This document shows positions 33,784 to 64,000 of a stretch of 64,000 bases of DNA, piece after piece (the stretch's first letter is position 1; the number at the start of each line of letters is the position of its first letter). Below the pieces are notes generated by a model, which was not told the DNA's origin, did not search any database, and saw nothing but the letters and a program-made list of their open reading frames with translations. A program made the translations under genes and the position numbers. This DNA is from Myxococcus landrumus (GTDB lineage Bacteria; Myxococcota; Myxococcia; Myxococcales; Myxococcaceae), in the NCBI RefSeq assembly GCF_017301635.1, contig NZ_CP071091.1, positions 2,306,001 to 2,370,000 on the forward strand. The letters run 5' to 3'.

Positions 33784-34160
33784 GGGGTCTCGCGAGCGTT
33801 TCTCTTCATTTCAGTGAAGCCCTGGAGCCGTGAAAACCACGGGCTTACTCCGATTTTGGGCTCACTGGACAATCACGATAAAACAAGAGATGAAGCTATA
33901 GGGCATGCTGCAACTTCGACCTTATTTTCTTTGTTCGCGGCTCTGGAATACAGCGACGTGACTTCGTGCGGCAGCGGGCCACTCGCGTCAGACGAGGGAG
34001 AGATGCTCGGCCAACCTCTCGATGAGGTGGTTTGCCGGAGTCTCGCGCTGCCAGGGGAACGAGGACTTCACAGTCATTTCTTTCGTGAAGTCGCTTGGGG
34101 AGAAAACAACTCCCTGGGCACACGGCACCATCATCTCGAGCCGTCCGCCGGGGAGTACGC
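33784..34160. promoter_or_regulatory. Divergent P450 / NRPS1 control region
   Basis: This 377-bp gap between the divergent P450 and NRPS1 genes is clearly richer in A/T than its flanks, mainly 33,790-33,960. An inverted repeat CCGTG-AAAAC-CACGG lies at 33828-33842, 45-59 bp ahead of the P450 start. GGGGAG (34150-34155) is the likely ribosome site of NRPS1. I see no convincing gene in it; the 135-residue plus-strand frame (33757-34164) reads across P450 antisense. Confidence 0.5.
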
Positions 34161-40100: not shown

Positions 40101-40628
40101 GTGGCCTACGTGGTGGCTCGCGATGGGCAGACGGTGGACGCGACGGCGCTGCGGGACGCGGTGGCGCTGCGGCTGCCGGAGCACATGGTCCCCTCGCTGC
40201 TGGTGACGCTGCCGGCGCTGCCGCTCACGCCCAACGGCAAGGTGGACCGCAAGGCCCTCCCCGCCCCCACCGCGGCCCGAGCCTCACGCGCGGCCTACGT
40301 GGCGCCGCAGAGCCAGCTCGAGATGCAGATCTCCGACGTGTGGAAGCAGGTGCTCAACGTCGAGCAGGTCGGAGTGGACGACAACTTCTTCGACCTGGGC
40401 GGGCACTCGCTGCTCATGGTGCAGGTGCATGCGCGGCTCAAGACGGTGCTGGGCTCGGAGCTGCCGCTGCTCAAGCTGCTGGAGCACCCCACGGTCAGCG
40501 CGCTCGCGCGCTACCTGCGGCAGGGGCCCGCATCGAATGTCACCCCGGTGGAGTCTGCTCAGGACCGGGCGAAGCGCCAGCTCGAGAGCATGAAGCGGCA
40601 GCAACAGCGCGCCAGGAAACAGGGGTAG
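34161..40628 (+). CDS. NRPS1: FAAL-ACP-C-A(Gly-like, monooxygenase inserted)-PCP
   Basis: A 2155-residue starter synthase. Residues 1-575 are a fatty acyl-AMP ligase (YTSGSTGNPKG from 181; WLPMFHDMGLIG from 222; KTSSGKIQ from 557). An ACP follows (Ser648 in GLDSLM). A condensation domain covers ~705-1140 (HHIVTDG at 843). The adenylation domain starts ~1160, with YTSGSTGRPKG at 1323 and SFDIS at 1368. A luciferase-like flavin monooxygenase occupies ~1406-1746, and the A domain resumes (MYGPTETT near 1830). A PCP ends the chain (Ser2083). Selectivity residues read as DILQMGMIWK, close to known glycine codes. The expected step is loading of a fatty acid onto the ACP and condensation with glycine, which may be alpha-oxidised. 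The basic C-terminal tail (KRQQQRARKQG) may dock PKS1. PKS1 begins 8 bp later. Confidence 0.85.
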   Translation: MNQRNEKSVGDFHNLVDLLSYRAQVRGDALLYRFLESGDVDGPVEEWSYARLDARARALGAQLRASGATGERALLLYPPGMEFVAGFMGCLYAGVIAVPCYPPDPTRLERTLPRLRAIARDCGARYVLTTQFIVDMSELFKPQAPELAELQWMASDAVPESLAADWRRPELEANTLAFLQYTSGSTGNPKGVMVSHANILHNEAFITRGFGLDASRSSGMGWLPMFHDMGLIGKVLQPLYLGFPCTLMSPISFLQRPLRWLEAISHYQATCSGGPNFAYDLCVRKATEEDRAKLKLHSWDLAFNGAEPVRRETLERFAETFAPCGFRRTAFYPCYGLAETTLIVTGGTKGESYVHGHFVSDAMEQGRAEEAVAEAPGARTLVGAGISAPDQRVLIVHPESREVLPANSVGEIWVSGPSVAQGYWARPEETAHAFDAKLSSGEGPFLRTGDLAFLSSSGQLFVTGRLKDLLIIRGRNLYPQDLEMDAERAHRAVRAGCSAAFSVDVEGEERLVLAMEVDVRDGFDASAVVAAVRQRLAEQHTVHAHGIVLLQARSIPKTSSGKIQRRATKAAYLAGELEVVELSVAETEPVAAPPAPTLPLKELLVTASETERRAHVEEFLRHAVARTLRVDVRKLQGDSSLASLGLDSLMVLELHGMLESELGVALPAAFLWMSQTLEAAADKLLEAWQGVRPDFSLAAPPLTAGPRDGELPLSSGQLRLWFLDRLVPDSALYNVHFQLHLSGPLDVEALRRSLDALLTRHPLLNAAFPEVEGQPRLVVRASASLPLPQVDLRSEKPEARDAALRRLALEQAREPFRLTEGPTVRASLVRLGDNEHRLLMTQHHIVTDGWSVGVLGRELAALYRAHVAGTTASLPPPRLHYADYSRWQQGLGPLLDGQRAYWAKQLAGLPRLELPTDFTRPREPRVQGALHRLTLDRSLVESLRALGRREGCTLFITLTAAWTALLHRYSGQEDFAVGTVVANRERPELRDVLGFFAHTLALRADLAGQPSFRELLNRTRRTFHEALAHADLPFEDVVASARVPRGGADNPLFQTALLLEALPPTDMTVPGMEWRPVLPVPDGAVEGTSKFDLQLSLVETADGLSGALEYRTDLFAAATVARLASHLETVLRAAVNAVELKVDDLPLLGAEETRKLLVDWNDLTPAQADDAALCIHAQFRAQAARTPDAVAVAGDDATLTYAELDGRANALAWRLRDAGVGPEVRVGLCLERSAAMVVAMLGVLKAGGAYVPLDPDYPRERLAFMLEDSGAAVLLTETHLQGSIPPGRARVVLLDDAAVDAHEVRDAPPASGTSAAGLAYVIYTSGSTGRPKGVMVPHGGVANFFTAMDARLGHQPVGSWLAVTSISFDISVLELLWTLTRGFKVVVQGEGALLKAPSRVAAARRKPMELSLFYFADDAEKSTGDRYRLLMEGAKFADRHGFAAVWTPERHFHAFGGLYPSPAVASAAIAAVTERVAIRAGSVVLPLHHPVRVAEEWALVDNLSRGRVGISVASGWHANDFVFAPERYEKRRELMMEGLETVRRLWRGETLRMQGGAGAQVDITLRPRPIQKDLPVWLTAAGNPDTFITAGRMGCHVLTHLLGQTWDDLEKKLGLYRDAWREAGHAGDGHVTLMLHTFIGEDAAQVRAVVEKPFRDYLRSSADLMRGLGRTLGVDLDTATEADLDRLAAQAFERYFETSGLFGTPRSVRERMEQLRALGVDEVGCLIDFGIPAETVLASLPRLHEVKCQADRDGRRASTARSIPLNLREHAVTHLQCTPSLARALMAEPESVEALAGLRRLMVGGEALPSSLGTSLRQALGEGARLLNMYGPTETTIWSSTHDVRDESGPVASIGSPFSRTQFYLLDAKLRPVPVGVPGELFIGGAGVVRGYLSRPELTAERFVPDPFSREPGARVYRTGDRARWRDDGTVEFLGRVDHQLKVRGFRIEAGEIEAVLSARPEVREAVVVAREDTPGDVRLVAYVVARDGQTVDATALRDAVALRLPEHMVPSLLVTLPALPLTPNGKVDRKALPAPTAARASRAAYVAPQSQLEMQISDVWKQVLNVEQVGVDDNFFDLGGHSLLMVQVHARLKTVLGSELPLLKLLEHPTVSALARYLRQGPASNVTPVESAQDRAKRQLESMKRQQQRARKQG
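38376..39398 (+). other. Luciferase-like monooxygenase domain embedded in the adenylation domain
   Basis: About 340 residues of LLM-fold (KPMELSLFYF, WTPERHFHAFGG, GSVVLPLHHPVRVAEEW, GRVGISVASGWHANDF) lie between adenylation cores A4 (SFDIS) and A5 (YGPTE). This class of insert is known from some myxobacterial synthetases acting on glycine, where it oxidises the alpha carbon. The matching A domain at 62.3 kb lacks it. Confidence 0.85.
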
Positions 40629-40635
40629 GTCTGTC

Positions 40636-43600
40636 ATGGGGAGTCATGTGGAGTACCAGGGGGACTCAGGACTGGCCGTGGCCATCGTGGGCATGGCGGT
40701 GCGTGTACCTGGGGCGCAGGATGTCGATGCGTTCTGGCGGATGCTGCGCGCGGGTGTGGAAGGCATCACCTTCTTCTCCGACGAGGCACTGAAGTCCCTC
40801 GGCGTGGACCCGGCGTTCCTGGCCAATCCCAGCTTCGTTCGCGCCGCGCCTGTCCTGGAGAGGCCGGGCCGCTTCGACGCGGCCTTCTTCGGCTACGCCC
40901 CACGCGAGGCCGAGCTGCTGGACCCGCAGCACCGCATCTTCCTGGAGTGCGCGTGGACGGCGCTGGAGCATGCGGGCTACGCCCCGGGGCGAGTGCCGGG
41001 CACCACGGGCATCTTCGCGGGCTCCAGCCTGAGCAGCTACCTGCTCTTCAACCTGCTCTCACGCGCGGAGTTCCAGCAGGCCGAGGACACCTTCCCGGCC
41101 ATGGTGGCCAACGACAAGGACTTCCTCGCCACGCGCGTGGCCTACCACCTGGACTTCAAGGGCCCGGCCCTCACGGTCCAGACGGGCTGCTCCACGTCGC
41201 TGGTCGCCACGCACCTGGCCTGCCAGTCCCTGCTCGGCTACCAGTGTGACGTCGCGCTCGCGGGCGGCGTGTCCGTGCACGTGCCCCAGCGCACGGGCTA
41301 CACCTACCAGGAAGGCGGCATCACCTCGCCGGACGGGCACTGCCGCGCGTTCGATGCGAAGGGCCAGGGCACGCTCTTTGGCAGCGGCGCGGGCATCGTG
41401 GTGCTCAAGCGCCTGGACGACGCGCTCAAGGACGGCGACACCATCCACGCCGTCATTCGCGGCTCGGCCATCAACAACGACGGCGCGGTGAAGGTCGGCT
41501 TCACGGCGCCGGGCGTGGAGGGCCAGATGGAGGTCATCGCCCGGGCCCAGGCCATGGCGGACGTGACGCCGGACTCCATCTCCTACGTCGAAGCGCATGG
41601 CACGGCCACGCCGCTGGGTGACCCCATCGAGGTGCAGGCGCTCGATGGCGTGTTCCGCGCCGGCACCGACAAGCGCGCCTTCTGCGGGCTCGGCTCGGTG
41701 AAGACCAACGTGGGCCACCTGGATGCCGCGGCGGGAGTGACGGGGCTCGTGAAGACGGTGCTCTCGCTGGAGCACGCGGAGCTTCCCGCCAGCCTGAACT
41801 ACGAGGCGCCCAACCCGCGCATCGACTTCGCGAACAGCCCCTTCTACGTCAACGCCTCCCTGGCTCCCTGGCCGGCGGGCGCGACTCCTCGCCGCGCGGG
41901 CGTGAGCTCGTTCGGCATCGGCGGCACCAACGCACACCTCATCCTGGAGGAGTCGCCCGTCATCCCGTCGGGGGATGCGTCGCGCGCGTGGCAGGTCCTC
42001 GTCCTCTCCGCGCGGACTCCGACTGCGCTGGACGCGCTGACCACGTCGCTGCTCTCCCACTTGAAGGAACATCCCGAGCAGCCGCTCGCGGACGTGGCGT
42101 GGACGCTGCAATCGGGGCGCAAGGCGCTGGACCTCCGGCGCGTGGTGGTCTGCAAGGACCGGGACGATGCCGTGCGGGTGCTGGAGACGCGGGACCCGCA
42201 GCGCCTCTTCACGCTCGCTCCGAGTTCCTCGACGCCGTCCGCGGTGTTCATGTTCCCCGGCGGCGGTGCGCAGTACCCGGACATGGGCCGAGGGCTCTAT
42301 GCCGCCGAGCCCGCCTTCCGCGAGGCGGTGGACCAGTGCTGCACGCTCCTGCGTCCCCGGCTGGGCTTCGACCTGAAGCCCCTGATGTACCCGGATGCGG
42401 ACTCCGCCGCGACCGCGGGCCAGCGCCTCAAGCGGACCTCGCTGGCCCTGCCCGCGCTGTTCACCGTCGAGTACGCGATGGCGCGCCTGTGGGAGTCCTG
42501 GGGCCTGAAGCCCGAGGCGGTCATCGGCCACAGCCTGGGTGAGTACACGGCGGCGTGCCTGGCGGGAGTCTTCTCGCTGGAGGATGCGCTGGCGCTGGTG
42601 GTGCTGCGAGGCAAGCTCTTCGAGGAGCTGCCTGGTGGCGGCATGCTCAGCGTGCCCATGCCCGAGGCGGAGGTGCGGCCACTGCTCGGCGACGCCCTGT
42701 CGCTCGCGGCGGTGAACGGCCCCTCGCAGTGCGTGGTCGCCGGCACGGTGGAAGCCGTCGAGGCGCTGGCCGCGGAGCTCGCCCGCCGCGAGGTGGAGTT
42801 CCGGCACATCCCCATCGACGTGGCGGCGCACTCGCACCTGGTGACGCCGATTCTCGCGCGCTTCCAGGAGTTCATCGGGACGCTGCGGCGCAACGCCCCC
42901 ACCCTGCCGCTGATGTCCAACGTCACCGGCACGTGGATGACGCCCGAGGAAGCCGTGGACCCGGCCTACTGGACGCGGCACCTGCGGCACACGGTGCGCT
43001 TCGGCGACGGCATCCGCACGCTCGCGGAGCAGCCTCACCGCGTCTACCTGGAGGTCGGTCCGGGCCGCACGCTCGGCACGCTGGCGCGGCTCCAACTCAC
43101 GGGCCCCGGCGCGCCGCCCGTGCTTCCTTCCCTCCGCCATCCGCAGGACCCGGTGGCCGATGAGGAACTGCTCGCCGCCACGCTCGGAAAGCTCTGGGCC
43201 GCGGGCGTGGGCATCGACTGGGCCGCGGTGCGCGGAGACGCGCGGCGGCTGCGCGTGCCGTTGCCCACGTATCCCTTCGAAGGCCAGGACTACTGGCTCG
43301 CCCCCGAGGCGCCCTCCGCCGCACGGCGTGGCAACGCGCGAAAGAACGCGGACGTGGCCAGTTGGTTCTACGTCCCCGCCTGGCGGCGCGCTCCGCTGTC
43401 ACCTCCCAAAGTGGGCGCCGTCACTCCGCGAGACTGGGTCGTGCTCCAGGACTCGACGGGAGCTGGCGAGGCGCTCGTCAATGAGCTGGTGCGCGCGGGC
43501 CATCGCGTCGTGCGCGTCACGCCGGGCACGCATCTCCAGGAGCTGGGTGAGCACCACTTCAGCCTGGACCCGTCGGCTCCCGAGGAGACCTTCTTCCTGT

Positions 43601-45171
43601 TGAATGCCCTGAAGGCGAAGGGCCTCGACGTGGAGCGCGTGGTCCACCTGTGGAGCCTGGATGGCGACGGCGTCACGGACTTCGACCGCGCCCAGGAACG
43701 CGGCTTCTACTCCGTGCTCCGGCTGACGCGTGCGCTGGTGGAGGCTTCGCTGCCCAAGCGCGTGGAGCTGACGGTGGTGGGACGCCTCGCGCTGGAGGTG
43801 GAGAGCACGGACGAAGTTCATCCCGAGCTCGCCACGGTCCCCGCGCTGTGCAAGGTGATTCCGCAGGAGCACGACGGCATCGCATGCCGGTATGTCGACC
43901 TGGGCCGTGGCACGGGCCTGTCCACCGTGAGCGCGTTGTCGCACGAGCTGCTCTCCGACTCCGCCGAGCCCGTGGTGGCCCTGCGTGGAGCGCGGCGCCT
44001 CGTGCAGACCCATGAGTCGCTGCGGCTCGAGCAGGACGCCGTGGCCGCGCAGCCCTTCCGGACGCGCGGCGTGTACCTCATCACGGGTGGCCTGGGCGGC
44101 GTGGGATTGCTGCTCGCGGGCGAGCTCGCGCGGAGCCATCAGGCGCGGCTCGTCCTCGTGGGCCGCTCCGGGTTGGAGGTAGACCCGGGAGGCCACAAGC
44201 AGCGTGCGGTAAGAGACCTGGAAGCGGCGGGCGCGGAAGTGCTCGTGGTTCGCGCGGACGTGGCGGACGAGTCGCGGTTGCGCGGCGTGCTCACGGAGGC
44301 CGAAGCGCGCTTCGGAGCGGTGCATGGCGTCATCCACGCGGCGGGCCTCGCGGGTGAAGGCGCGGTGGCGCTGCTCGCCGGTCTGGACGCGGCGGCGTGC
44401 GCGCCCCACTTCCGAGCGAAGGTCCATGGCACCTACGCGCTGGAGCGGGCACTCGCCGGACGCTCGCTGGACTTCGTGTTGCTGGTGTCCTCCAACGCCG
44501 CCGTGCTCGGGGGCCTGGGACTTGGCGCCTATGGCGCGGCCAATGCGTTCCTCGATGCGTTCGCGGCCTCACGCGCGCACAGCGGCACGACGCGCTGGCT
44601 GAGCACCAACTGGGATGGCTGGCCCGTCGCCGAGGAAGGGACGCAGGGCGCGAAGACGAGCCTCGACGCGTTCGCCATGTCCTCGACGGAAGCCGTGGAG
44701 GCGTTCCGCCGCGTCGTCGAGTCCGCGCAAGGCGGACAGGTGGTGGTCTCCACGGGCGACCTGCCCGCGCGCGTGGCGCGATGGGTGAGGAAGGACGGCG
44801 CGAGCGCCGAGTCCTCCTCGGGCGCGGTGCATGAGCGTCCTCAGCTCGGCACCGAGTACGTGGCGCCCACGGATGACGTGGAGCTGGCGCTGGCGAAGGT
44901 CTGGCAGGAGCAGCTCGGACTGGCGCAGCTCGGCATCCACGACAACTTCTTCGACCTCGGCGGGAACTCGTTGCTGTGGCTCAAGATCGTGGGTCGGCTG
45001 AAGCGGGAGCTGGGGCGCGACATTCCGCTCACCTCCGTCTTCGAGGCCCCCACCGTCGCCACGCTGGCGAAGAAGCTGGGCGGGCCGGCCACCACGGCCC
45101 AGCCCCCGGGCTTCGAGACGAGTCAGAACCGAGGCGCGCAGCGCAGGGAGCGGCGAAGCCGCCGCGAGTGA
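40636..45171 (+). CDS. PKS1: KS-AT-KR-ACP
   Basis: A 1511-residue type I polyketide synthase module. KS residues ~15-440: Cys185 (TGCSTS), His in EAHGTATP and NVGHLDAAAG. AT ~535-840: Ser633 in GHSLGEY. The selectivity site, usually HAFH for malonyl or YASH for methylmalonyl, reads AAHS; with GHSLG I lean to malonyl. KR ~1140-1330: TGGLGGVG from Y1147, catalytic Ser in LVSSNA, Tyr1299 in AYGAANA, and Lys in RAKVHG, all present. ACP Ser1445 in DLGGNSLL. Expected result: one ketide unit with a beta-hydroxyl. No DH, ER or methyltransferase. The C-terminus is basic (RRERRSRRE), matching the tails of its neighbours. Confidence 0.85.
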   Translation: MGSHVEYQGDSGLAVAIVGMAVRVPGAQDVDAFWRMLRAGVEGITFFSDEALKSLGVDPAFLANPSFVRAAPVLERPGRFDAAFFGYAPREAELLDPQHRIFLECAWTALEHAGYAPGRVPGTTGIFAGSSLSSYLLFNLLSRAEFQQAEDTFPAMVANDKDFLATRVAYHLDFKGPALTVQTGCSTSLVATHLACQSLLGYQCDVALAGGVSVHVPQRTGYTYQEGGITSPDGHCRAFDAKGQGTLFGSGAGIVVLKRLDDALKDGDTIHAVIRGSAINNDGAVKVGFTAPGVEGQMEVIARAQAMADVTPDSISYVEAHGTATPLGDPIEVQALDGVFRAGTDKRAFCGLGSVKTNVGHLDAAAGVTGLVKTVLSLEHAELPASLNYEAPNPRIDFANSPFYVNASLAPWPAGATPRRAGVSSFGIGGTNAHLILEESPVIPSGDASRAWQVLVLSARTPTALDALTTSLLSHLKEHPEQPLADVAWTLQSGRKALDLRRVVVCKDRDDAVRVLETRDPQRLFTLAPSSSTPSAVFMFPGGGAQYPDMGRGLYAAEPAFREAVDQCCTLLRPRLGFDLKPLMYPDADSAATAGQRLKRTSLALPALFTVEYAMARLWESWGLKPEAVIGHSLGEYTAACLAGVFSLEDALALVVLRGKLFEELPGGGMLSVPMPEAEVRPLLGDALSLAAVNGPSQCVVAGTVEAVEALAAELARREVEFRHIPIDVAAHSHLVTPILARFQEFIGTLRRNAPTLPLMSNVTGTWMTPEEAVDPAYWTRHLRHTVRFGDGIRTLAEQPHRVYLEVGPGRTLGTLARLQLTGPGAPPVLPSLRHPQDPVADEELLAATLGKLWAAGVGIDWAAVRGDARRLRVPLPTYPFEGQDYWLAPEAPSAARRGNARKNADVASWFYVPAWRRAPLSPPKVGAVTPRDWVVLQDSTGAGEALVNELVRAGHRVVRVTPGTHLQELGEHHFSLDPSAPEETFFLLNALKAKGLDVERVVHLWSLDGDGVTDFDRAQERGFYSVLRLTRALVEASLPKRVELTVVGRLALEVESTDEVHPELATVPALCKVIPQEHDGIACRYVDLGRGTGLSTVSALSHELLSDSAEPVVALRGARRLVQTHESLRLEQDAVAAQPFRTRGVYLITGGLGGVGLLLAGELARSHQARLVLVGRSGLEVDPGGHKQRAVRDLEAAGAEVLVVRADVADESRLRGVLTEAEARFGAVHGVIHAAGLAGEGAVALLAGLDAAACAPHFRAKVHGTYALERALAGRSLDFVLLVSSNAAVLGGLGLGAYGAANAFLDAFAASRAHSGTTRWLSTNWDGWPVAEEGTQGAKTSLDAFAMSSTEAVEAFRRVVESAQGGQVVVSTGDLPARVARWVRKDGASAESSSGAVHERPQLGTEYVAPTDDVELALAKVWQEQLGLAQLGIHDNFFDLGGNSLLWLKIVGRLKRELGRDIPLTSVFEAPTVATLAKKLGGPATTAQPPGFETSQNRGAQRRERRSRRE

Positions 45172-45192: not shown

Positions 45193-48100
45193 GTGGACGA
45201 GAAGCAGACTCCAGACATCGACGACGCAGACCTCGCCATCATCGGCATGTCCGGGCGTTTCCCGGGTGCTCGGGACACGGCGGAGCTCTGGAGCAACGTC
45301 CGGGGCGGCGTGGAATCCATCCGGTTCCTCTCACCCGAGGAGTGTCGCGCCGCCGGCGCGTCGAAAGAGCAGGTCGAGGACCCCGACTTCGTGCGCGCCG
45401 CCGCGGTGTTCCCGGAGCCCGAGTCCTTCGACGCCGCGTTCTTCGACATGCCGCCCCGCGAGGCGGAGCTGACGGACCCACAGCACCGTGTCTTCCTGGA
45501 GATCTGCTGGGAGGCCCTGGAGCACGCGGGCTATTCGCCTCGGGACTACTCCGGCGCCATCTCCGTGTACGGCGGCGCCACGCTCAACACCTACCTGCTG
45601 ATGAACCTGGCGAGGAACCCGCGCGTGCTGGGCTCCGTGGAGCCGGTGCAGGTCAACATCGGCAACGGCACGGACTTCCTGGCGACGCGCGTCTCGTACA
45701 AGTTGAACCTGCGTGGCGCCAGTCACGCCGTGCAGAGCGCGTGCTCGACGTCGCTGGTCGCCGTGCACCAGGCCTGCCAGAGCCTGCTCAATGGGGAGTG
45801 TGACATCGCGCTCGCGGGTGGCGCGTCCGTCAACGTGAGCTTCCTCAACGGCTACCGTCACGTGGAGGGCGGAATGGCGTCCCCGGATGGGCGCTGCCGC
45901 CCGTTCGACGCGAAGGCCCGGGGCACGCTGTTCGGCAGCGGCGCGGGCGTGGTGGTGCTGAAGAAGCTGCGGGCCGCGCTGCGCGACGGCGACACCGTGC
46001 ACGCGGTCATCAAGGGTTCGGCCATCAACAACGATGGCTCGCTCAAGGCCGGCTACACGGCGCCGGGCGTGGAGGGTCAGGCCCAGGTCGTCGCCGAGGC
46101 GCTCGCGGCGGCCGGCGTGGACGCGGACACCATCGGCTACGTGGAGGCCCATGGCACCGCGACGCCGCTGGGGGACCCCATCGAGGTGGAGGCGCTCACG
46201 CGGGCCTTCCGTTCCACCACCCAGCGCAGGCGCTTCTGCGCGCTCGGCTCGGTCAAGGGCAACGTCGGACACCTGGACGCGGCGGCGGGCATCACCGGAC
46301 TCATCAAGACCGCCCTCGCCTTGAAGCACGGAGAGCTGCCCCCCAGCCTCCACTACGAGCGGCCCAACCCGGCCATCGACTTCGACGGCAGCCCCTTCTA
46401 CGTCAACGCGACCCTCAAGCCCTGGCCCACGAGCGCGCTGCCCCGGCGCGCGGGCGTCAGCTCCTTCGGCGTCGGTGGCACCAACGCACACGTCGTCCTG
46501 GAGCAGCCGCCGCGTCCGGTCGACAGCGCTCCTTCGCGACGCGCGTGGCAGTTGCTCCCGCTGTCGGCGCGCACGTCGTCCGCGCTGGAGTCCAGCACGG
46601 GCCGTCTGGCGAAGGCGCTCGAGGGCACCGCCGACAAGGCCCTCGCGGACGTGGCCTGGACGCTCCAGGTGGGACGTCAGCGCTTCGGCCAGCGCCGCTT
46701 CGTCCTCGCGCGCGGCGTGAGCGACGCGGTGGCGGTGCTCTCCCAGCCGGACAGCCCTCGTGTCCACACCGCGACGGAGGACGGCGTGGAGCGCCCGGTG
46801 GCGTTCCTGTTCCCCGGCCAGGGCTCGCAGCACGTGGGCATGGGTCGCGCGCTCTACGACGCGGAGCCGGTGTTCCGCGCGGAGGTGGACCGGTGCTCGG
46901 AGCTGCTCAAGCCGCACCTCGGCGGCAGGGACCTGCGCGACGTGCTGTACCCGAAGTCGGGTGACGCGGCGGAGAACGAGAAGACGCTGGCGCGCACGGA
47001 GCTCACCCAGCCCGCGCTCTTCACCCTCGAGTACGCCACCGCGTGCCTCTGGATGTCGTGGGGCGTGAAGCCCGCCGCCATGCTGGGACACAGCATTGGC
47101 GAGTATGTGGCCGCATGCCTCGCGGGGGTCTTCACGCTGGAGCACGCGCTTCAGCTCGTGGCGACACGAGGCCGGCTGATGCAATCCCTCCCCGCGGGCT
47201 CCATGCTCGCGGTGCCCCTCAGCGAAGAGGAGCTGCGGCCTTCGCTCGGGACCGAGCTGAGCCTCGCCGCGGTGAACGCGCCCATGCAGTGCGTCGCCTC
47301 CGGGCCCACGGAGGCGATTGAACGGCTGCGTCGGCAGCTCGAGGAGTCCGGCGTGCGGTGCCACGTGCTCGTCACGTCGCATGCCTTCCACTCCGCGATG
47401 ATGGACCCCATCCTCGACGCCTTCACGGCGCGAGCGGCGGCCATGCCGTTGCGGCCCCCCACCCTGCCCTTCATCTCCAACGTGACGGGGACGTGGATCA
47501 CCACCGAGCAGGCGACGAGCCCGCGGTACTGGGCACAGCACCTGCGCGGCGCGGTGCGCTTCGCGGACGGCCTGCACGCACTCCTCTCCGACCCCAAGCG
47601 CGTCCTGCTGGAGGCGGGACCAGGCCAGGTGCTCAGCCGTCTCGCGCGGCGGCATCCGGCGTCTTCACCTTCGCGCCCCGTGCTCGGCTCCATGCCGATG
47701 CCTCAGGACACGGTGGCCGAGGGCACACCGCCGCTGGCGTACACGACGCTGGGCAACCTGTGGCTCGCGGGCGTCAACGTCGACTGGCGGAGCTTCCACG
47801 GCGACGAGCGGCGTCAGCGCCTCCCGCTCCCGACCTACCCCTTCGAGCGGCAGCGCTTCTGGGTGGAGCCCGAGGAGCAGCACACGCACGGTGGAGCCAC
47901 CGTGGCCCAGGCCACGTCCGAGCGCCTCCCGGCGCCACAGGAGCAGGCGCCGCTGGAGCGGTGGTTCCACGCCCCCTCCTGGAAGCGTGCGCCGCTCGCG
48001 CCCGTGAGCGCCACGAAGGCGCCGGATCCGCGCGTGTGGCTGGTGTTCGAGGACGCGGCGGCAACCGCTGATTCGCTCCTGTCCTCCGAGCCCGGCACCG

Positions 48101-49881
48101 AGCACGTGGTGGTGCGTGTGAAGCCAGGCACCGGGTTCCAGCGTGTTCACGACGCGGCCTTCACCGTGGCTCCTGGTTCTCAGTCGGATCTGCGCGAGCT
48201 TGTGAACACGTTGCGCGAGTCGGGCCGGCTCCCGGACGCGGTGCTTCATCTCTGGAGCCTCACGTCGGAGCTGCCGACGTCCTTCGCGCAGACCCAGGCC
48301 CACGGCTACCACACGCTCGTGGGGCTCTCGCGAGTCCTCGTCGAGCTCCCCCCCGAGCGCCCCTGCACCGTCTTCGTGGTCTCCAACCACGTGCACGACG
48401 TCACCGGAGAGGAAGCCCTCTCTCCCGACAAGGCGACGGTGCTCGGCCCCTGCCGGGTCATCCCGCAAGAGCATCCCCACCTGCGCTTCCACCACGTGGA
48501 TGTGGTGACGGAGGCCGGGGCTCGACTGTCGCCCGGGAGTCTCCAGGCGCTCCGCACCGAGCTGCGCGCCGCTCCGCGCGAAACGGTGGTGGCATTGCGA
48601 GGAGCCCACCGTTGGGTTCCGGCCCTGGAGCCCCTGCCCCTGCCCGAGGCTCCCGCGCCGCATCCCACCGCGCGCGCGGGTGGCGTCTATCTGCTCGTCC
48701 ATGGCCTCGGAGGTGTCGGCGCCATGAACGCGAGGGCGCTCGCACGGCTGTCTCCTGGCGCGAAGCTTGTGTGCCTGGAGCCCGTGGGCTTCCCTGCTCG
48801 CGACACCTGGGACACCCATGTGTCCACACCGGACACGGGCGAGGACTGGGCCCAGCGCATCCGCCGCGCACGCGAGCTCGAAGCGATGGGCGCGGAGGTC
48901 CATGTCGTCCCCGTCGACCTGACGAACGAGGAGTCCCTGCGCACGGCGGTGGACTCGACGGTCTCCCGCTGGGGCGCGCTCCACGGCGTGGTGCACGCGG
49001 CATGGCTGCCGCGTCAGAAGGTCGCCCGCCTCGTCTCCGAGACGGGACCAGAAGAGACCGCGTGGCACTTCGACCCACGGGTCCGGGGACTGGCGCTGCT
49101 CGACGCGGTGCTCGGAGACCGGGCCCTGGACTTCCGCGTGGTGGCGTCGTCCATCTCCGCCGTGCTCGGTGGCATCTCCACCGTCGCCCACACCGCCGCG
49201 AGCGCGTGGCAGGACGCCTTCGCGCAAGCGACGACCCGAACGGGCCGGCGCTGGACGAGCGTGGGCTGGGACGTGGTGCGAGTGGAGGACTACGGCGCGC
49301 ACCTGGGTGCACGCGGTGAGGCCATCGACCGGCTCGCCGTCACGCCCGAGCAAGGCGCGGAGGTCCTGAGCCGCATGCTCGCGCACGCGGCCGGGCCGTG
49401 GCTGGTCGTCTCCACGCACGATGTGAAGGCGCGGCAAGCACCGCCGCAGCCGCTGCCCGCGCAAGCGGAGGTCGTTGCGCGGCCGCTGCATCCCCGTCCG
49501 GCGAACCTTCGCAGTGCCTATGTGGCTCCGACGACGGAGCTGGAGCGGCTGCTCGCGGACCTCTGGCAGCAGATGCTGGGCGTGACGCCCATCGGCATCC
49601 AGGACAACTTCTTCGAGCTGGGAGGCGACTCACTCGTCGCGGTCCAGCTCACCGACCAGCTCAAGCGCCGGCTCAACCTCAGCGTGCCCGCGTCCAGCCT
49701 CTACGAAGGGGTCACCGTGAAGGCGCTGGCGGCCTTGATTCAGCCGCCCGACGCGAACCCGGGCGCGGCACAAGGCGAGGCGGACGAGCGCGAGTCCACC
49801 GTCCAGCGCCGCAAGCAGAACCTCCAGCGTCAGCGCTCGCGTCGGCGCGCGGAGGATGAGGACGCGGAGGAAGGCAGCTGA
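45193..49881 (+). CDS. PKS2: KS-AT-KR(inactive)-ACP
   Basis: A 1562-residue module; the start is a GTG with AAGGAG 8 bp upstream. KS Cys184 (SACSTS); AT Ser634 in GHSIGEY with HAFHS at 730-734, the malonyl-CoA signature. The KR at ~1160-1360 is degenerate: the cofactor motif reads LVHGLGGVG, the catalytic Lys is Arg1296 (DPRVRG), the Tyr is His1333 (AHTAAS) and the following Asn is Ser. I infer no ketoreduction, leaving a beta-keto group. ACP Ser1480 in ELGGDSLV. The C-terminal tail is long and charged (RRKQNLQRQRSRRRAED). The stop overlaps the glycosyltransferase ATG by one base. Confidence 0.85.
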   Translation: MDEKQTPDIDDADLAIIGMSGRFPGARDTAELWSNVRGGVESIRFLSPEECRAAGASKEQVEDPDFVRAAAVFPEPESFDAAFFDMPPREAELTDPQHRVFLEICWEALEHAGYSPRDYSGAISVYGGATLNTYLLMNLARNPRVLGSVEPVQVNIGNGTDFLATRVSYKLNLRGASHAVQSACSTSLVAVHQACQSLLNGECDIALAGGASVNVSFLNGYRHVEGGMASPDGRCRPFDAKARGTLFGSGAGVVVLKKLRAALRDGDTVHAVIKGSAINNDGSLKAGYTAPGVEGQAQVVAEALAAAGVDADTIGYVEAHGTATPLGDPIEVEALTRAFRSTTQRRRFCALGSVKGNVGHLDAAAGITGLIKTALALKHGELPPSLHYERPNPAIDFDGSPFYVNATLKPWPTSALPRRAGVSSFGVGGTNAHVVLEQPPRPVDSAPSRRAWQLLPLSARTSSALESSTGRLAKALEGTADKALADVAWTLQVGRQRFGQRRFVLARGVSDAVAVLSQPDSPRVHTATEDGVERPVAFLFPGQGSQHVGMGRALYDAEPVFRAEVDRCSELLKPHLGGRDLRDVLYPKSGDAAENEKTLARTELTQPALFTLEYATACLWMSWGVKPAAMLGHSIGEYVAACLAGVFTLEHALQLVATRGRLMQSLPAGSMLAVPLSEEELRPSLGTELSLAAVNAPMQCVASGPTEAIERLRRQLEESGVRCHVLVTSHAFHSAMMDPILDAFTARAAAMPLRPPTLPFISNVTGTWITTEQATSPRYWAQHLRGAVRFADGLHALLSDPKRVLLEAGPGQVLSRLARRHPASSPSRPVLGSMPMPQDTVAEGTPPLAYTTLGNLWLAGVNVDWRSFHGDERRQRLPLPTYPFERQRFWVEPEEQHTHGGATVAQATSERLPAPQEQAPLERWFHAPSWKRAPLAPVSATKAPDPRVWLVFEDAAATADSLLSSEPGTEHVVVRVKPGTGFQRVHDAAFTVAPGSQSDLRELVNTLRESGRLPDAVLHLWSLTSELPTSFAQTQAHGYHTLVGLSRVLVELPPERPCTVFVVSNHVHDVTGEEALSPDKATVLGPCRVIPQEHPHLRFHHVDVVTEAGARLSPGSLQALRTELRAAPRETVVALRGAHRWVPALEPLPLPEAPAPHPTARAGGVYLLVHGLGGVGAMNARALARLSPGAKLVCLEPVGFPARDTWDTHVSTPDTGEDWAQRIRRARELEAMGAEVHVVPVDLTNEESLRTAVDSTVSRWGALHGVVHAAWLPRQKVARLVSETGPEETAWHFDPRVRGLALLDAVLGDRALDFRVVASSISAVLGGISTVAHTAASAWQDAFAQATTRTGRRWTSVGWDVVRVEDYGAHLGARGEAIDRLAVTPEQGAEVLSRMLAHAAGPWLVVSTHDVKARQAPPQPLPAQAEVVARPLHPRPANLRSAYVAPTTELERLLADLWQQMLGVTPIGIQDNFFELGGDSLVAVQLTDQLKRRLNLSVPASSLYEGVTVKALAALIQPPDANPGAAQGEADERESTVQRRKQNLQRQRSRRRAEDEDAEEGS
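48661..49290 (+). other. Degenerate ketoreductase domain of PKS2
   Basis: The positions of Lys, Tyr and Asn in the short-chain dehydrogenase active site are Arg1296, His1333 and Ser. The NADPH loop also departs from TGGLGGVG. The fold pattern is otherwise kept, so it probably remains as a structural domain. Confidence 0.8.
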
Positions 49882-51179
49882 TGCGAGCCATCCTCACCAA
49901 CTTCGGCACGCTCGGAGACGTCCAGCCCTTCGTGGCGCTGGCCGTCGAGCTCCGTCGGCACGGGCATCACCCCGTGCTCGCCGCCGCGCCCTCGTACCGT
50001 GAGCTCGCGGAGCAGCACGGCCTCGACTTCCTGCCCGTGGGTCCGGACCTCCGGGCAGCCCAGAGCGGAATCACGCAGGCGATGATGGGCAGCCCCGACG
50101 TCATCCATGACGCCAGCGGAATGCTCCAGCTCTTCCAGCCGCTCGTGGCGTCCCTACCGCGCATGCTGGAGGACCTTCGCGCCGCGTGTCGTGGCGCGGA
50201 CGTGCTCATCAGCGGACGCGTCCAGCCGGCCGCGCGCATGGTGCATGACCTGACACACGTGCCCTTCGTCACGGTGCTGGTGGAGCACAGCGGAAGTGGC
50301 GGCGGTGGCCCGGCGTTCCAGGCCGCCGTGCGCGGACTGGTCAACCCCCTGCGCGAGTCCCTGCGCCTGCCGCCGCTCGACAATCCGCTGGTGGATGGGC
50401 TGTCGCCGCAGCTCGTGCTCACGGCCTTGAGCCGGCACGTGCGGCCGCCCGCCTCGGACCTCCCGGCGCACCACCACACCGTGGGCTATTGCCTGCTCGA
50501 GGAGCCGGCCTTCACACCCGACGCGGACCTGGCGGCGTTTCTCGCGGAGGGCGAGGCTCCGGTCTGCATCACCTTCGGCAGCATGACCCACGGCGACCCG
50601 GTGGCGCTGACGAACACCTTGGTCGACGCCACGGTGCGCGCGGGACGAAGGGCCCTCATCCAGCAAGGCTGGAGTGGACTGGGCCAGCGCGCCCTCCCGC
50701 CCTCGGTGCGAGTCGTCGGACAGGTGCCCCACTCGTGGCTCTTCTCGCGCGTGTCGTGCGTCGTGCACCACGGCGGCGCGGGCACCACGGGCGCGGCGTT
50801 CCGCGCGGGTGTTCCGCAGGTCGTGGTGCCGCATACGTATGACCAGTTCACCTGGGGCGAGGTCGTCCAGGAGCTTCGCTGCGGCGGAGCGGCGGTGCCC
50901 ATCGGTGAGCTGAGCGTGGAGCGGCTCGCGGAGGCCCTCGGCACGGTGCTGGGCGGCGAGGAGCATCGAGCCTCCGCGGCGCGCGTGGGTGAGCAACTGC
51001 GCGCGGAGCACGGCGCGGCGAAGGCACGTCACCTCATCGAGGACCTGGTCCGTCGAGTGGGGCTTGCCTCGCCAGCGAGCGAAGGGCCCGAGGCCCCGGA
51101 AGAGACAGAAGACGAGGAACGGCGCCAGCGCCGCAGGACCGCGCTGAAGCAGCAAAGGGCGAGGAAGGTCGACACTTGA
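49881..51179 (+). CDS. UGT/MGT-type glycosyltransferase with synthase-like basic tail
   Basis: A 432-residue GT-B glycosyltransferase of family 1 type. The N-terminus ILTNFGTLGDVQPF is the acceptor-domain start. The C-terminal domain has ITFGSMTHGD, and the nucleotide-sugar signature HHGGAGTTGAAFRAG from His296, then PHTYDQFTWG. It transfers a sugar to a hydroxyl of a small molecule. The last ~25 residues (EERRQRRRTALKQQRARK) are unlike normal GT endings and resemble the tails of NRPS1, PKS1 and PKS2. It lies inside the operon between two PKS genes, overlapping PKS2 by one base. I infer glycosylation of the cluster product, perhaps while it is bound to the assembly line. No sugar-biosynthesis genes are in the window. 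Confidence 0.8.
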   Translation: MRAILTNFGTLGDVQPFVALAVELRRHGHHPVLAAAPSYRELAEQHGLDFLPVGPDLRAAQSGITQAMMGSPDVIHDASGMLQLFQPLVASLPRMLEDLRAACRGADVLISGRVQPAARMVHDLTHVPFVTVLVEHSGSGGGGPAFQAAVRGLVNPLRESLRLPPLDNPLVDGLSPQLVLTALSRHVRPPASDLPAHHHTVGYCLLEEPAFTPDADLAAFLAEGEAPVCITFGSMTHGDPVALTNTLVDATVRAGRRALIQQGWSGLGQRALPPSVRVVGQVPHSWLFSRVSCVVHHGGAGTTGAAFRAGVPQVVVPHTYDQFTWGEVVQELRCGGAAVPIGELSVERLAEALGTVLGGEEHRASAARVGEQLRAEHGAAKARHLIEDLVRRVGLASPASEGPEAPEETEDEERRQRRRTALKQQRARKVDT

Positions 51180-51199: not shown

Positions 51200-54100
51200 A
51201 TGGCCACGGATTCGTCCGACACGGACACCACGGGTCTGGAGATTGCTGTCATCGGCATGGCGGGGCGGTTCCCGGGGGCGAAGGACCTGGAAGCGTTCTG
51301 GCGCAACCTGAAGGACGGCGTGGAGTCCATCCAGTTCCTCACGGACGAGGACCTGGAGCCCAGCGCGCTCGACACGGCGGCGATCCGCTCGGACCCCAAC
51401 TACGTGAAGGCGGCCGCCATCCTCGAGGACGCGGACCTCTTCGACGCGGGCTACTTCGGCGTCACCCCCAAGGAAGCGGAGGTGATGGACCCGCAGCAGC
51501 GCGTCTTCCTGGAGTGCGCGGTGGAGGCCCTGGAGCACGCGGGCTACGACGCCGAGCGCTTCAAGGGACGCATCGGTGTGTACGCCGGCGCCCGCACGGA
51601 CACGTACCTCTTCAACCTCTTCTCCAACCCCGCGGCCGTCGGAGGACTGGACCCCTTCGAGATTGGCCTCGGCAACGACCTGGCCTTCCTCACCACGCGC
51701 GTGGCGCACCGGCTCAACCTGCGCGGGCCCGCGTACTCGGTCCACACGGCGTGCTCCACGGCCCTGGTCGCGCTGCACCTGGCGGGACAGGCCCTGCTCG
51801 CGGACGAGTGCCGGATGGCCGTCGCGGGCGGAGTGGCCATCAACGTCCCGCAGAAGGTGGGCTACCTGTACCAGTACGGCGGCATCGCCTCACCGGACGG
51901 CCACTGCCGGGCGTTCGACGCGAAGGCGGCTGGCACCATCTTCGGCAGCGGCATCGGACTCGTGGTCCTCAAGCGCCTGGAAGACGCGCTCGAGGATGGC
52001 GACACCATCCACGCCGTCATCAAGGGCTCCGCCATCAACAACGACGGCGCCGTGAAGGCCAGCTTCACCGCGCCCAGCGTGCAGGGCCAGGCCACGGTCA
52101 TCAAGGACGCGCTCGCCGCCGCGGAAGTCTCCGCGGATTCCATCTCCTACGTGGAGACGCACGGCACCGGCACCGCGCTGGGAGACCCCATCGAGCTGCG
52201 CGCGTTGACCAAGGCGTTCGGTGGAAAGAGCCTGGGACGTCGCACCGTGCCCATCGGCTCCGTGAAGACGAACGTGGGGCACCTGGACGCGGCGGCCGGA
52301 AGCGCGAGCCTGTTGAAGGCCATCCTGGCGATGAAGCACCAGCAGCTTCCGCCCAGCCTCCACTTCGAGTCCCCCAACCCGCAGATCGACTTCGACAGCG
52401 GCCCCTTCTTCGTGAACACCACGCTCCAGCCGTGGGCACGCGGCCGGGCGCCTCGCCGCGCGGGAGTCAGCTCGTTCGGCATCGGCGGCACCAACGCCCA
52501 CGTCATCCTGGAGGAGGCTCCCGCCGCGCAGCCCGCCGCCGCGGGTCGGCCGTGGGAGCTGATGGTCCTGTCCGCGCGCAGCCACACGGCGCTGGACACC
52601 GCCACCGCGCGGCTCGCGCAGCACCTGGAATCGCATCCGGAGCTCTCTCTCGCGGATGTGGCGCACACGCTTCAAGTCGGCCGCAAGGCGCACGCCCACC
52701 GCCGTGTCGTGGTGGCTCGCGACACGCGAGATGCCGTGCGAGTCCTGCGCATGGCGGAGCCCCGCCGCGTCCTCTCTGGAACCCATGAGACGAGCAATCG
52801 TCCCGTGTCGTTCCTCTTCTCGGATGCAGGAGTGGCGACGTCGCTGGAGCCGCTGTACCGCGCGGAGCCGGCCTTCCGTGAAGAGGTGGACCGCTGCGCC
52901 GAGCTGCTCCAGCCGCGCCTGGGCGTGGACCTGCGCACCGTGCTGTATCCCGAGGAGGGTGGACGTCCCGCGCGCTCGGGAGCGGTGGACGCGGCCGCGC
53001 GCTTCGTGGAGCCGTATGCGCTGGCGCGCCTCTGGATGTCGTGGGGCATCTCCCCGGAGACCCTGCTGGGCGAGGGCCTGGGCGCGTGGGTCGCCGCCTG
53101 CCTCGCGGGCGTGCTCCCGCTGGACGAAGCCTTGAGCCTGACCGTGGCCCGGGGCGAAGGCCGCACGGCGATGCCGAACGCCGCGAGCCTGAAGGCGCCG
53201 GAGGTTCCGGTTCTTCTCGCGGCCACGGGCGCCCTCGTCACGGCCTCCGAGGCCCTGCGCCCGGAGACGTGGCGGGACGCGGCGAATCCCGCGACACGGA
53301 TGGACGATGCGCTTCGCGAGCTGGTGAAGGAGCCCACGCGGGTCGTGCTCGCGATGTGCGCTCCGGGAACGCTCGTCGAGCGGGCCCGCACGCACGCGGG
53401 CACCACGGGAACCCGTGCGCTGCGCACGTGTGTCCCCGCGACCGGTGACACCCAGCCTTCGTTGGCGACGGTCCTGGAGACGCTGGGCCAGCTCTGGCTG
53501 GACGGCGTGGAAGTGGACTGGGAGGCCGTGAACGAAGGACGCGAGCGGCGGCGCGTGCCGCTGCCCACCTATCCCTTCGAGCGCCAGCGCTACTGGGTCC
53601 CTCCCGCGGCGCGCGTCGAGGCGTCGCAGGCGCAAGGCCAGGTTCCGCAGGGGAAGCTGGTGGACATGGCGGACTGGTTCCACACGCCCGCATGGCAGCG
53701 CACGGCGCCCATCGCCCTGGACCGCAAGGCCCTGGCCGAGCGCCGCTGCTGGGTGGTGTTCGTGGACGGGCTCGGCGTCGGTGAGGCGCTGTGCCGTCGG
53801 CTGGAGGACTCCGGCCAGGACGTGGTGAGGATTCGCCAGGGAAGCGCCTTCATGCGGGACGCCGCGCGCCGCTACGCGCTGGACCCGCGGGTTCGCGGCG
53901 ACTACGCCACGCTGTGGAAGGACCTGGCGGACCAGGAGCTGAGCCCGTCCGTGGTGGTCCACCTGTGGAGCCTCGGCGCCTCGGGCGCGGGGCGCACGGG
54001 CCCCGAGCTGTTCCGGGACGTCCAGGACCTGGGCTACTACAGCCTCCTGCACCTGGGTCAGGCGCTCGCCACGGGGGACACGTCGCGTCCCGTGCGGCTG

Positions 54101-55576
54101 GAGGTCGTGACGGACCGGCTGGCCAACGTGGCCGGCGAGAGCACCGCGCTCCCGGAGAAGGCCACCCTGCTCGGACCGTGCAAGGTGATTCCGCAGGAGC
54201 AGGAGCACGTCACCACCCGCTGCATCGACCTGATGGCCCCCGAGCCGCGCAGCGCGGGCGTGGAGCAGGTGGCGGAGCGGCTGTTGTCGGAGCTGAGTCA
54301 GCGCTCGAAGGACGCGGTGGTGGCCTGGAGAGGCAACCTTCGCTTCGCGCAGGCGCTCTCGCCCCTTCGTCTTGAGCCGTCTGGCGATGCCCCCGCGCCG
54401 CTGCGTGAGCAGGGCGTCTATCTCATCACCGGTGGCCTCGGCGGCGTGGGCTTGATGCTGGCCGACCATCTGGCGCGCACCTTCAAGGCACGGCTCGCGC
54501 TGCTGGGCCGGACCGCGATGCCCGCCCCGTCCGAGTGGGACGGCTACCTGGCCACCCACGCGAAGGACGACGCGATGGCCCAGCGCATCCTCCGGGTGCG
54601 CGAGCTGGAACAGGCCGGCGCGCAGGTGATGGTGGTGCACGCGGATGTCGCGAACGCGGAGCAGCTCGAGGCGGCCGTGGCCCAGGTGGAGGCGCGGTTC
54701 GGAGCGCTGAACGGCGTGCTCCACTGCGCCGGTGTCACGCATGGCTCGTCGCTCTACAACCCGCTGACGGACATTGGGCGGAACGAGTCGGAGACGCAGT
54801 TCGGTCCCAAGGTCTACGGCACCTATGCACTGGAGAAGGTGCTGAGCCGCCGCGCCGCGGACTTCGTGCTCCTGTTCTCCTCCAACGCCGCGGTGCTCGG
54901 CGGTCTCGGCTACCTGACCTACGCGTCGTCCAACCTCTTCATGGATGCCTTCGCGCAGGCCCGCGCGGGTCACACCGGCACGCGCTGGGTCAGCGCGTCG
55001 TGGGACCCGTGGCCGGAAGAGACGAAGCACACGAACGTTCGCACCAGCATGGACCAGTACGCGATGACGCCCCGGGAAGGTGCCGAGGCGGTGCAGCGGC
55101 TGGTGACGCTCGGCGTGGACGGACACGTGGTGGTCGCCACGGGCGACCTGGCCCAGCGCTGGCGGCTGTGGATTCAGCGCGACACGTCCAAGCCCGCACA
55201 GGGCACGCGCGCCGCGGGCAAGCCTCGCCGCTCGAAGACGCCGTTCGTTGCGCCTGCCACGGACCTGGAGAAGCAGCTCGCCTCGCTCTGGCAGGAGATC
55301 CTGGGCGTGGACAGCGTGGGCCTGAACGACAACTTCTTCGACCTGGGCGGCCACTCGCTGCTGGCCACACGTGTGGCCGGACGCCTGCGCACCCAGTTCA
55401 ACTTCGACATTCCCCTGGCGAAGCTCTTCGAGGCCGCCACGGTCTCTGCCCTGGCGAAGCTGGTGGCGGACCACCAGGCCTCGCTGGAGGACGCCGCCAG
55501 TCAGGCGGCCCTCGATGAGCTGGCCAACCTGAGTGACGAAGAGATTGAAGCCGAGCTCGCGCGACGCTCGCGATAG
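51200..55576 (+). CDS. PKS3: KS-AT(inactive)-KR-ACP
   Basis: A 1458-residue module. I prefer the ATG at 51200, with GGAGAAG upstream; a TTG at 51176 is in frame and overlaps the GT stop. KS Cys185 (TACSTA) and ETHGTGT/NVGHLDAAAG are intact. The AT region (~535-750) is gutted: the N-terminal GQG motif reads FLFSDAG, the GHSxG motif reads GEGLG (E625, G626, so no nucleophile Ser), and the small subdomain holding the HAFH site is missing. KR from Y1074 (TGGLGGVG) keeps Tyr1241 (TYASSN) and Lys (GPKVYG). ACP Ser1386 in DLGGHSLL. It needs an extender from another AT, or does not extend. The C-terminal linker (LDELANLSDEEIEAELARR) differs from the basic tails upstream. Confidence 0.85.
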   Translation: MATDSSDTDTTGLEIAVIGMAGRFPGAKDLEAFWRNLKDGVESIQFLTDEDLEPSALDTAAIRSDPNYVKAAAILEDADLFDAGYFGVTPKEAEVMDPQQRVFLECAVEALEHAGYDAERFKGRIGVYAGARTDTYLFNLFSNPAAVGGLDPFEIGLGNDLAFLTTRVAHRLNLRGPAYSVHTACSTALVALHLAGQALLADECRMAVAGGVAINVPQKVGYLYQYGGIASPDGHCRAFDAKAAGTIFGSGIGLVVLKRLEDALEDGDTIHAVIKGSAINNDGAVKASFTAPSVQGQATVIKDALAAAEVSADSISYVETHGTGTALGDPIELRALTKAFGGKSLGRRTVPIGSVKTNVGHLDAAAGSASLLKAILAMKHQQLPPSLHFESPNPQIDFDSGPFFVNTTLQPWARGRAPRRAGVSSFGIGGTNAHVILEEAPAAQPAAAGRPWELMVLSARSHTALDTATARLAQHLESHPELSLADVAHTLQVGRKAHAHRRVVVARDTRDAVRVLRMAEPRRVLSGTHETSNRPVSFLFSDAGVATSLEPLYRAEPAFREEVDRCAELLQPRLGVDLRTVLYPEEGGRPARSGAVDAAARFVEPYALARLWMSWGISPETLLGEGLGAWVAACLAGVLPLDEALSLTVARGEGRTAMPNAASLKAPEVPVLLAATGALVTASEALRPETWRDAANPATRMDDALRELVKEPTRVVLAMCAPGTLVERARTHAGTTGTRALRTCVPATGDTQPSLATVLETLGQLWLDGVEVDWEAVNEGRERRRVPLPTYPFERQRYWVPPAARVEASQAQGQVPQGKLVDMADWFHTPAWQRTAPIALDRKALAERRCWVVFVDGLGVGEALCRRLEDSGQDVVRIRQGSAFMRDAARRYALDPRVRGDYATLWKDLADQELSPSVVVHLWSLGASGAGRTGPELFRDVQDLGYYSLLHLGQALATGDTSRPVRLEVVTDRLANVAGESTALPEKATLLGPCKVIPQEQEHVTTRCIDLMAPEPRSAGVEQVAERLLSELSQRSKDAVVAWRGNLRFAQALSPLRLEPSGDAPAPLREQGVYLITGGLGGVGLMLADHLARTFKARLALLGRTAMPAPSEWDGYLATHAKDDAMAQRILRVRELEQAGAQVMVVHADVANAEQLEAAVAQVEARFGALNGVLHCAGVTHGSSLYNPLTDIGRNESETQFGPKVYGTYALEKVLSRRAADFVLLFSSNAAVLGGLGYLTYASSNLFMDAFAQARAGHTGTRWVSASWDPWPEETKHTNVRTSMDQYAMTPREGAEAVQRLVTLGVDGHVVVATGDLAQRWRLWIQRDTSKPAQGTRAAGKPRRSKTPFVAPATDLEKQLASLWQEILGVDSVGLNDNFFDLGGHSLLATRVAGRLRTQFNFDIPLAKLFEAATVSALAKLVADHQASLEDAASQAALDELANLSDEEIEAELARRSR
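52805..53440 (+). other. Degenerate acyltransferase remnant of PKS3
   Basis: Compared with PKS1 and PKS2, the region lacks the nucleophile Ser and about 60-80 residues corresponding to the ferredoxin-like small subdomain. The post-AT linker (PTYPFERQRYW) is kept. Confidence 0.8.

Positions 55577-55685: not shown

Positions 55686-64000
<8,315 letters not shown>

Follow-up and report, generated by a model that had tools for sequence, protein, structure and literature searches.

The window analysed here, a stretch of 64 kb inside a 10.37-Mb single-contig Myxococcus genome, encodes a hybrid assembly line of nonribosomal peptide synthetases (NRPS) and polyketide synthases (PKS). The gene order is NRPS1, PKS1, PKS2, GT, PKS3 and a very large NRPS2. 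The glycosyltransferase (GT) encoded among these synthases carries a C-terminal tail of the PKS2 kind, namely a linker and a basic helix with the motif RRxxxLxx[QR]R near the C-terminus. In a survey of 195 Myxococcota genomes with a GT family profile, the tail proved to be conserved and was found only in the GTs of this cluster family. This bears out one part of the first-pass annotation, namely that the GT acquired an added tail resembling those of the upstream synthase subunits. Judged from the sequence, it is probably a docking tail. The chances seem about even that this PKS2-like tail holds the GT at PKS3, where it would glycosylate a carrier-bound chain on-line; the full claim of on-line glycosylation is held with lower confidence than the docking function itself.

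A PKS2-like tail beyond the glycosyltransferase fold

The GT has a GtfA/GtfB-like GT-B fold, common to the vancomycin-type GtfA, GtfB and GtfD, EryCIII-like GTs and the yeast UGT51 over GT residues 1-395. The best VIA-align matches are GtfA, UGT51 and GtfB (Z 31-33, model residues ~1-395; for 1pn3, Z 32.8, root-mean-square deviation 3.6, 362 aligned), in a comparison that re-scored Foldseek's list only and by itself does not exclude other families. The nucleotide-sugar-site motifs GD(V/I)xPF, HH(G/S)GAGT and DQ are present in 10 family members, in which G12, D13, H296, H297, G299-T302, D321 and Q322 are invariant. Solved GtfA/B-type relatives (PDB) align only up to around residues 393-403, and the C-terminal tail lies beyond, as an extra of the Myxococcus GT. 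In the AlphaFold model, the predicted local confidence (pLDDT) drops below 50 over the linker (residues 396-410), followed by a helix of moderate confidence at residues 410-431 (mean pLDDT 72). The end of PKS2 is modelled in the same way, with a low-confidence linker and then a helix (fragment residues 88-115; mean pLDDT 61).

The coordinates and tail residues quoted in the first-pass annotation for NRPS1, PKS1, PKS2 and the GT are all present. The GT ends in ...DEERRQRRRTALKQQRARKVDT. PKS2 has the quoted basic residues (QRRKQNLQRQRSRRRAED), but they are not the end of the protein, which runs on to an acidic ...EDAEEGS. The GT and PKS2 tails share the motif RRxxxLxx[QR]R without gaps and with identical 13-residue spacing, both in the window (RRRTALKQQRARK/RRKQNLQRQRSRR) and in the related clusters of genomes G017 (RRRSALEQQRLRR/RRKQSLEQQRSRR) and G142 (RRKALLQRRRTLH/RRKQNLERQRTRR). 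PKS2 of G011 reads QRKQALARQRTLR, so the first Arg of the motif is not absolute. The motif occurs in 26/683 distinct C-terminal 40-mers, of which 25 belong to PKS2 or GT and one to another PKS, in a set enriched for these clusters and with a pattern written after the sequences had been seen. It was found in 0/268 proteins from a background sample of 20 random 20-kb regions.

In the other clusters, the likeness of the GT and PKS2 tails goes beyond composition (G017, p 0.0003; G011, p 0.018; G142, p 0.008), these values being not fully independent because the clusters share ancestry. The resemblance of the GT tail to that of NRPS1 is weaker (p 0.02-0.3), and no likeness beyond basic composition was found to the PKS1 tail (p 0.40). 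The four tails do not share a single sequence. PKS3 ends in an unlike segment, LSDEEIEAELARRSR, ahead of NRPS2, and the GT tail has no similarity to it (p 0.81).

With a position-specific scoring matrix (PSSM) trained on nothing but the tails of NRPS1 and PKS2, the GT ranked third among 298 protein C-termini, behind two of the training sequences, with a score of 15.8 compared with a background maximum of 11.0. When the GT tail was shuffled with its composition preserved, only 1.2% of the shuffles reached this score. A hidden Markov model (HMM) of the tail gave strong matches in the 195 genomes only on NRPS1, PKS2 and this GT family; since the HMM contains GT rows, its GT scores are partly circular. 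A profile was required, as the 20-residue GT tail used as a single query matched itself alone.

Distribution of the tail and constraint on its sequence

The GT family has 18 members above 700 bits, the next match reaching 249 bits, and 18/18 match the family model through to its end. The surroundings of most of them were read (G005 and G009 with 1.5-kb flanks only), and the members examined all lie in one FAAL-NRPS/PKS cluster family, in three genera. Type A clusters have the order NRPS1-PKS1-PKS2-GT-PKS3-NRPS2 in a single operon. In type B (~57% identity), NRPS1-PKS1-PKS2 is divergent from GT-PKS3-NRPS2 where both halves are seen; in G012 and G026B, the two halves were not seen joined. Type C, found in another genus (G142), has the gene order of type A. 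The tail is retained in every family GT shown in the alignments of the three types, with R417, R418 and R426 invariant across the aligned GTs, and the GT gene lies immediately upstream of PKS3 in types A, B and C alike.

The comparison with homologous GTs that the first-pass annotation had put forward as a check was carried out, and it agreed with a tail specific to the family GTs of this cluster: the motif was found in 0/28 GT homologues outside the family (a few of these loci repeat one another), nearly all of which end within ~23 residues past the fold. Most natural-product GTs act after product release, and the closest NCBIfam match to the GT is a rifamycin-inactivating GT, far under its cut-off. 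Both would suit an ordinary off-line enzyme that tailors the released lipopeptide or serves self-protection, with a tail for stability, dimerisation or another use. Such a role appears rather unlikely, given a motif missing from the 28 homologues yet carried by PKS2, solved relatives that stop aligning ahead of the tail and a gene that always adjoins PKS3.

Among 11 type A GT orthologues, the ratio of nonsynonymous to synonymous substitution rates (dN/dS) is 0.20 for the enzyme body, 0.83 for the linker (residues 396-415) and 0.19 for the tail (residues 416-432), with a permutation p of 5e-5 for the contrast between linker and tail. The type A linker drifts near-neutrally and the tail is constrained as strongly as the enzyme body. 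This constraint on amino acids, not on nucleotides, argues against reading the tail as a functionless leftover of a PKS2 3'-end copy or as arising merely from the ribosome-binding sequence of the next gene, readings to which the adjacency of GT and PKS2 in types A and C and the purine-rich sequence before PKS3 might otherwise point. In the window, just 2/6 identical GT and PKS2 residues use the same codon, and the codons of such residues mostly differ in type A, which argues against a recent copy. The tail is also retained in type B, whose PKS2 belongs to a divergent operon, and an origin as a mere remnant or by-product is very improbable.

Outside these clusters, the tail HMM gave a match of E 0.004 in G038 (a 353-aa frame) and weak ones in G149, G150 and others, which look like chance; the calls shown for the opened regions of G038, G149 and G150 include no synthase-like genes. 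An NRPS1-like FAAL synthetase with a basic tail and no adjacent PKS1-3 or GT is present in G001, G006 and G021 (L090-L098). G007, G015, G018 and G023 have an NRPS1-sized frame with the tail, the lack of PKS1-3 and GT being judged there from the match alone. These NRPS1-only loci look like the outcome of decay or rebuilding of the cluster.

A candidate docking interaction at PKS3

In the proposed mechanism, a GtfA/GtfB-like GT-B enzyme would have acquired a C-terminal tail of the PKS2 kind, made of a disordered linker and a short basic helix. The PKS2 tail would lead its acyl carrier protein (ACP) to PKS3, and the look-alike tail may hold the GT at the same acceptor. The GT could then add its sugar to the lipo-amino-acyl-polyketide as this chain grows on its carrier, the likeliest site being a hydroxyl formed by the ketoreductase of PKS1 or PKS3. 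As the GT tail fits that of PKS2, weakly that of NRPS1 and not that of PKS1, its partner is predicted to be PKS3 and not PKS1. Because the GT gene also stays beside PKS3 when PKS2 is in another operon, we infer that the GT sits at PKS3 and acts on-line. More tentatively, and at somewhat less than even odds, the GT might mimic the upstream PKS tail and compete for, or share, the two acceptor sites of a PKS3 homodimer during on-line glycosylation, the pairing of a basic helix with a short leader being an undescribed type of docking.

Several observations weigh against this reading. The leaders before the ketosynthase (KS) domains of PKS1-3 are short, about 9-23 residues, and that of PKS3 has ~14. 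The first-pass annotation had described acidic starts for the subunits that follow; this holds for PKS2, which begins (V)DEKQTPDIDDAD with a conserved acidic stretch, but not for PKS3, which begins (MA)TDSSDTDTTGLE in the window and whose acidity is not conserved in type B (MADENAWNGLEIAVIGM) and type C (MSEPMNQQMGGAELTGLEVAIVGM). A docking-type tail on the GT, also part of the electrostatic docking claimed there, is retained, while simple charge pairing is weak for the PKS3 junction. GT tails fit the PKS2 of their own cluster no better than that of other clusters (39.1 vs 40.6), and no co-variation of the two tails was found in this test. In six type B GTs, dN/dS is 0.18 for the body, 0.44 for the linker and 0.56 for the tail, so that the whole tail is there under no more constraint than the linker; the final residues vary and the motif is retained. 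Finally, the likeness of the GT and PKS2 tails in the window itself is marginal beyond composition (p 0.047), as would be expected if basic low-complexity C-termini merely resembled each other. Such coincidence is hardly credible, since the likeness recurs in the other clusters and the motif is absent from the random-region proteins. Constraint and recurrence together make both coincidence and a functionless remnant unlikely.

Carrier proteins, both ACP and peptidyl carrier protein (PCP), are generally acidic, and the GT tail is strongly basic and predicted to be helical. It might thus be a recruitment tail that binds these carriers or the membrane instead of the leader of the PKS3 KS, raising the local concentration of the enzyme without docking mimicry. 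The lack of conserved acidity in the PKS3 leader would fit such binding, which we nevertheless consider unlikely, as the GT tail has the spaced motif of PKS2 and not charge alone.

A PKS2-like docking tail on the GT can be compared with the systems covered by the review PMC9113145, which names class 1, class 2, four-helix, DHD, COM, PAX and SLiM-beta-hairpin docking. In the last of these (Hacker 2018, Kosol 2019; PMC9113145), a short disordered C-terminal motif (SLiM, short linear motif) recruits the next enzyme, much like the GT tail would do; such motifs have been reported to end oxidases, while halogenases, methyltransferases and thioesterases carry beta-hairpin domains. The partner of a SLiM has a beta-hairpin domain folded at its N-terminus, and the junctions are of the PCP/C or PCP/Cy kind, whereas here a predicted basic helix would meet a KS with a leader of just ~9-20 residues. 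The ~14 residues of PKS3, if it is the partner, are too few for such a domain, and the system does not qualify as a SLiM pair. In class 2 docking of cis-acyltransferase PKS (CurG/CurH, CurK/CurL, Bamb_5925/5924; PMC9113145), a helical C-terminal tail after the ACP leads to a KS, as here, but the partner provides one or two N-terminal helices before the KS. The leaders of PKS1-3 look too short for this helical segment, which, judged by their length, they lack. By eye, the junction from PKS3 to NRPS2 looks more class 2-like.

Recruitment of tailoring enzymes by docking motifs is thus already known; what would be new here is a GT whose tail mimics that of a subunit, perhaps together with an acceptor not described before. 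The open-access literature gave no precedent of an on-line GT that carries a docking domain or tail, and GTs are not mentioned among the enzymes with docking motifs in the class 2 and hybrid sections of PMC9113145. If correct, the GT would be wired into the PKS/NRPS line by a copied docking address of a subunit, which would explain the placement of a sugar at one defined stage of synthesis. It would also offer a small portable tag by which tailoring enzymes could be joined to assembly lines, and point to a docking type in which a basic helix meets a KS that has hardly any leader, at a junction where classical docking domains seem to be absent.

Organization of the locus

The same locus is found in the named relatives M. 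eversor, M. qinghaiensis and M. llanfairpwll..., all of them Myxococcus species. No report on the product of this cluster was found in the open-access literature. The stop codon of PKS2 and the start codon of GT share 1 bp (TGATG). The start of PKS3 is probably ATG 51200, which is kept in the relatives, and not TTG 51176.

Features of the cluster in window coordinates (C, condensation; A, adenylation; AT, acyltransferase; KR, ketoreductase)
Feature	Coordinates	Strand	Description
NRPS1	34095..40628	+	FAAL-ACP-C-A (with inserted LLM monooxygenase)-PCP
NRPS1 tail	40560..40625	+	C-terminal, QDRAKRQLESMKRQQQRARKQG
PKS1	40636..45171	+	KS-AT-KR-ACP
PKS1 tail	45127..45168	+	C-terminal, NRGAQRRERRSRRE
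PKS2	45193..49881	+	KS-AT-(degenerate KR)-ACP-basic tail
PKS2 tail motif	49807..49845	+	RRKQNLQRQRSRR; model for the GT tail
GT	49881..51179	+	432 aa; Pfam EryCIII-like_C and Glyco_transf_28
GT flexible linker	51066..51107	+	Residues ~396-409, after the GT-B fold
GT C-terminal basic helix, putative docking tail	51108..51176	+	Residues 410-432
GT 13-residue motif	51129..51167	+	RRRTALKQQRARK; in register with the PKS2 motif
PKS3	51200..55576	+	KS-(degenerate AT)-KR-ACP; leader MATDSSDTDTTGLE; predicted acceptor of the PKS2 and GT tails
PKS3 C-terminal segment	55511..55573	+	LDELANLSDEEIEAELARRSR; different docking type, toward NRPS2
NRPS2	55686..64000	+	Very large multimodular NRPS; its start is shown here, and it continues past the window edge

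The KR region of PKS2 has no GGLGGVG motif and no catalytic Tyr (AHTAASAWQD), and the KR is wholly absent from the type B and C PKS2 proteins examined. In the AT active site of PKS3, GEGLG stands in place of GHSxG. The site is likewise degenerate in G003 (type A) and type C (ACGAG), and intact in type B (L036, L135, L039); malonyl loading in trans would therefore be needed in types A and C.

The monooxygenase of the LLM type (TIGR04020) sits within the adenylation domain of NRPS1. Just upstream of NRPS1, a protein of the dioxygenase/glyoxalase fold, weakly similar to HPPD (31350-32423), is followed by a P450 (32434-33783). In type B, a GMC-type oxidoreductase adjoins PKS2 (L081:8165-9799). None of these three proteins, the P450, the dioxygenase-like protein and the GMC oxidoreductase, has the basic tail or its motif. 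At L088, NRPS1 is preceded by a gene pair with ends similar to those of the dioxygenase-like/P450 pair of the window.

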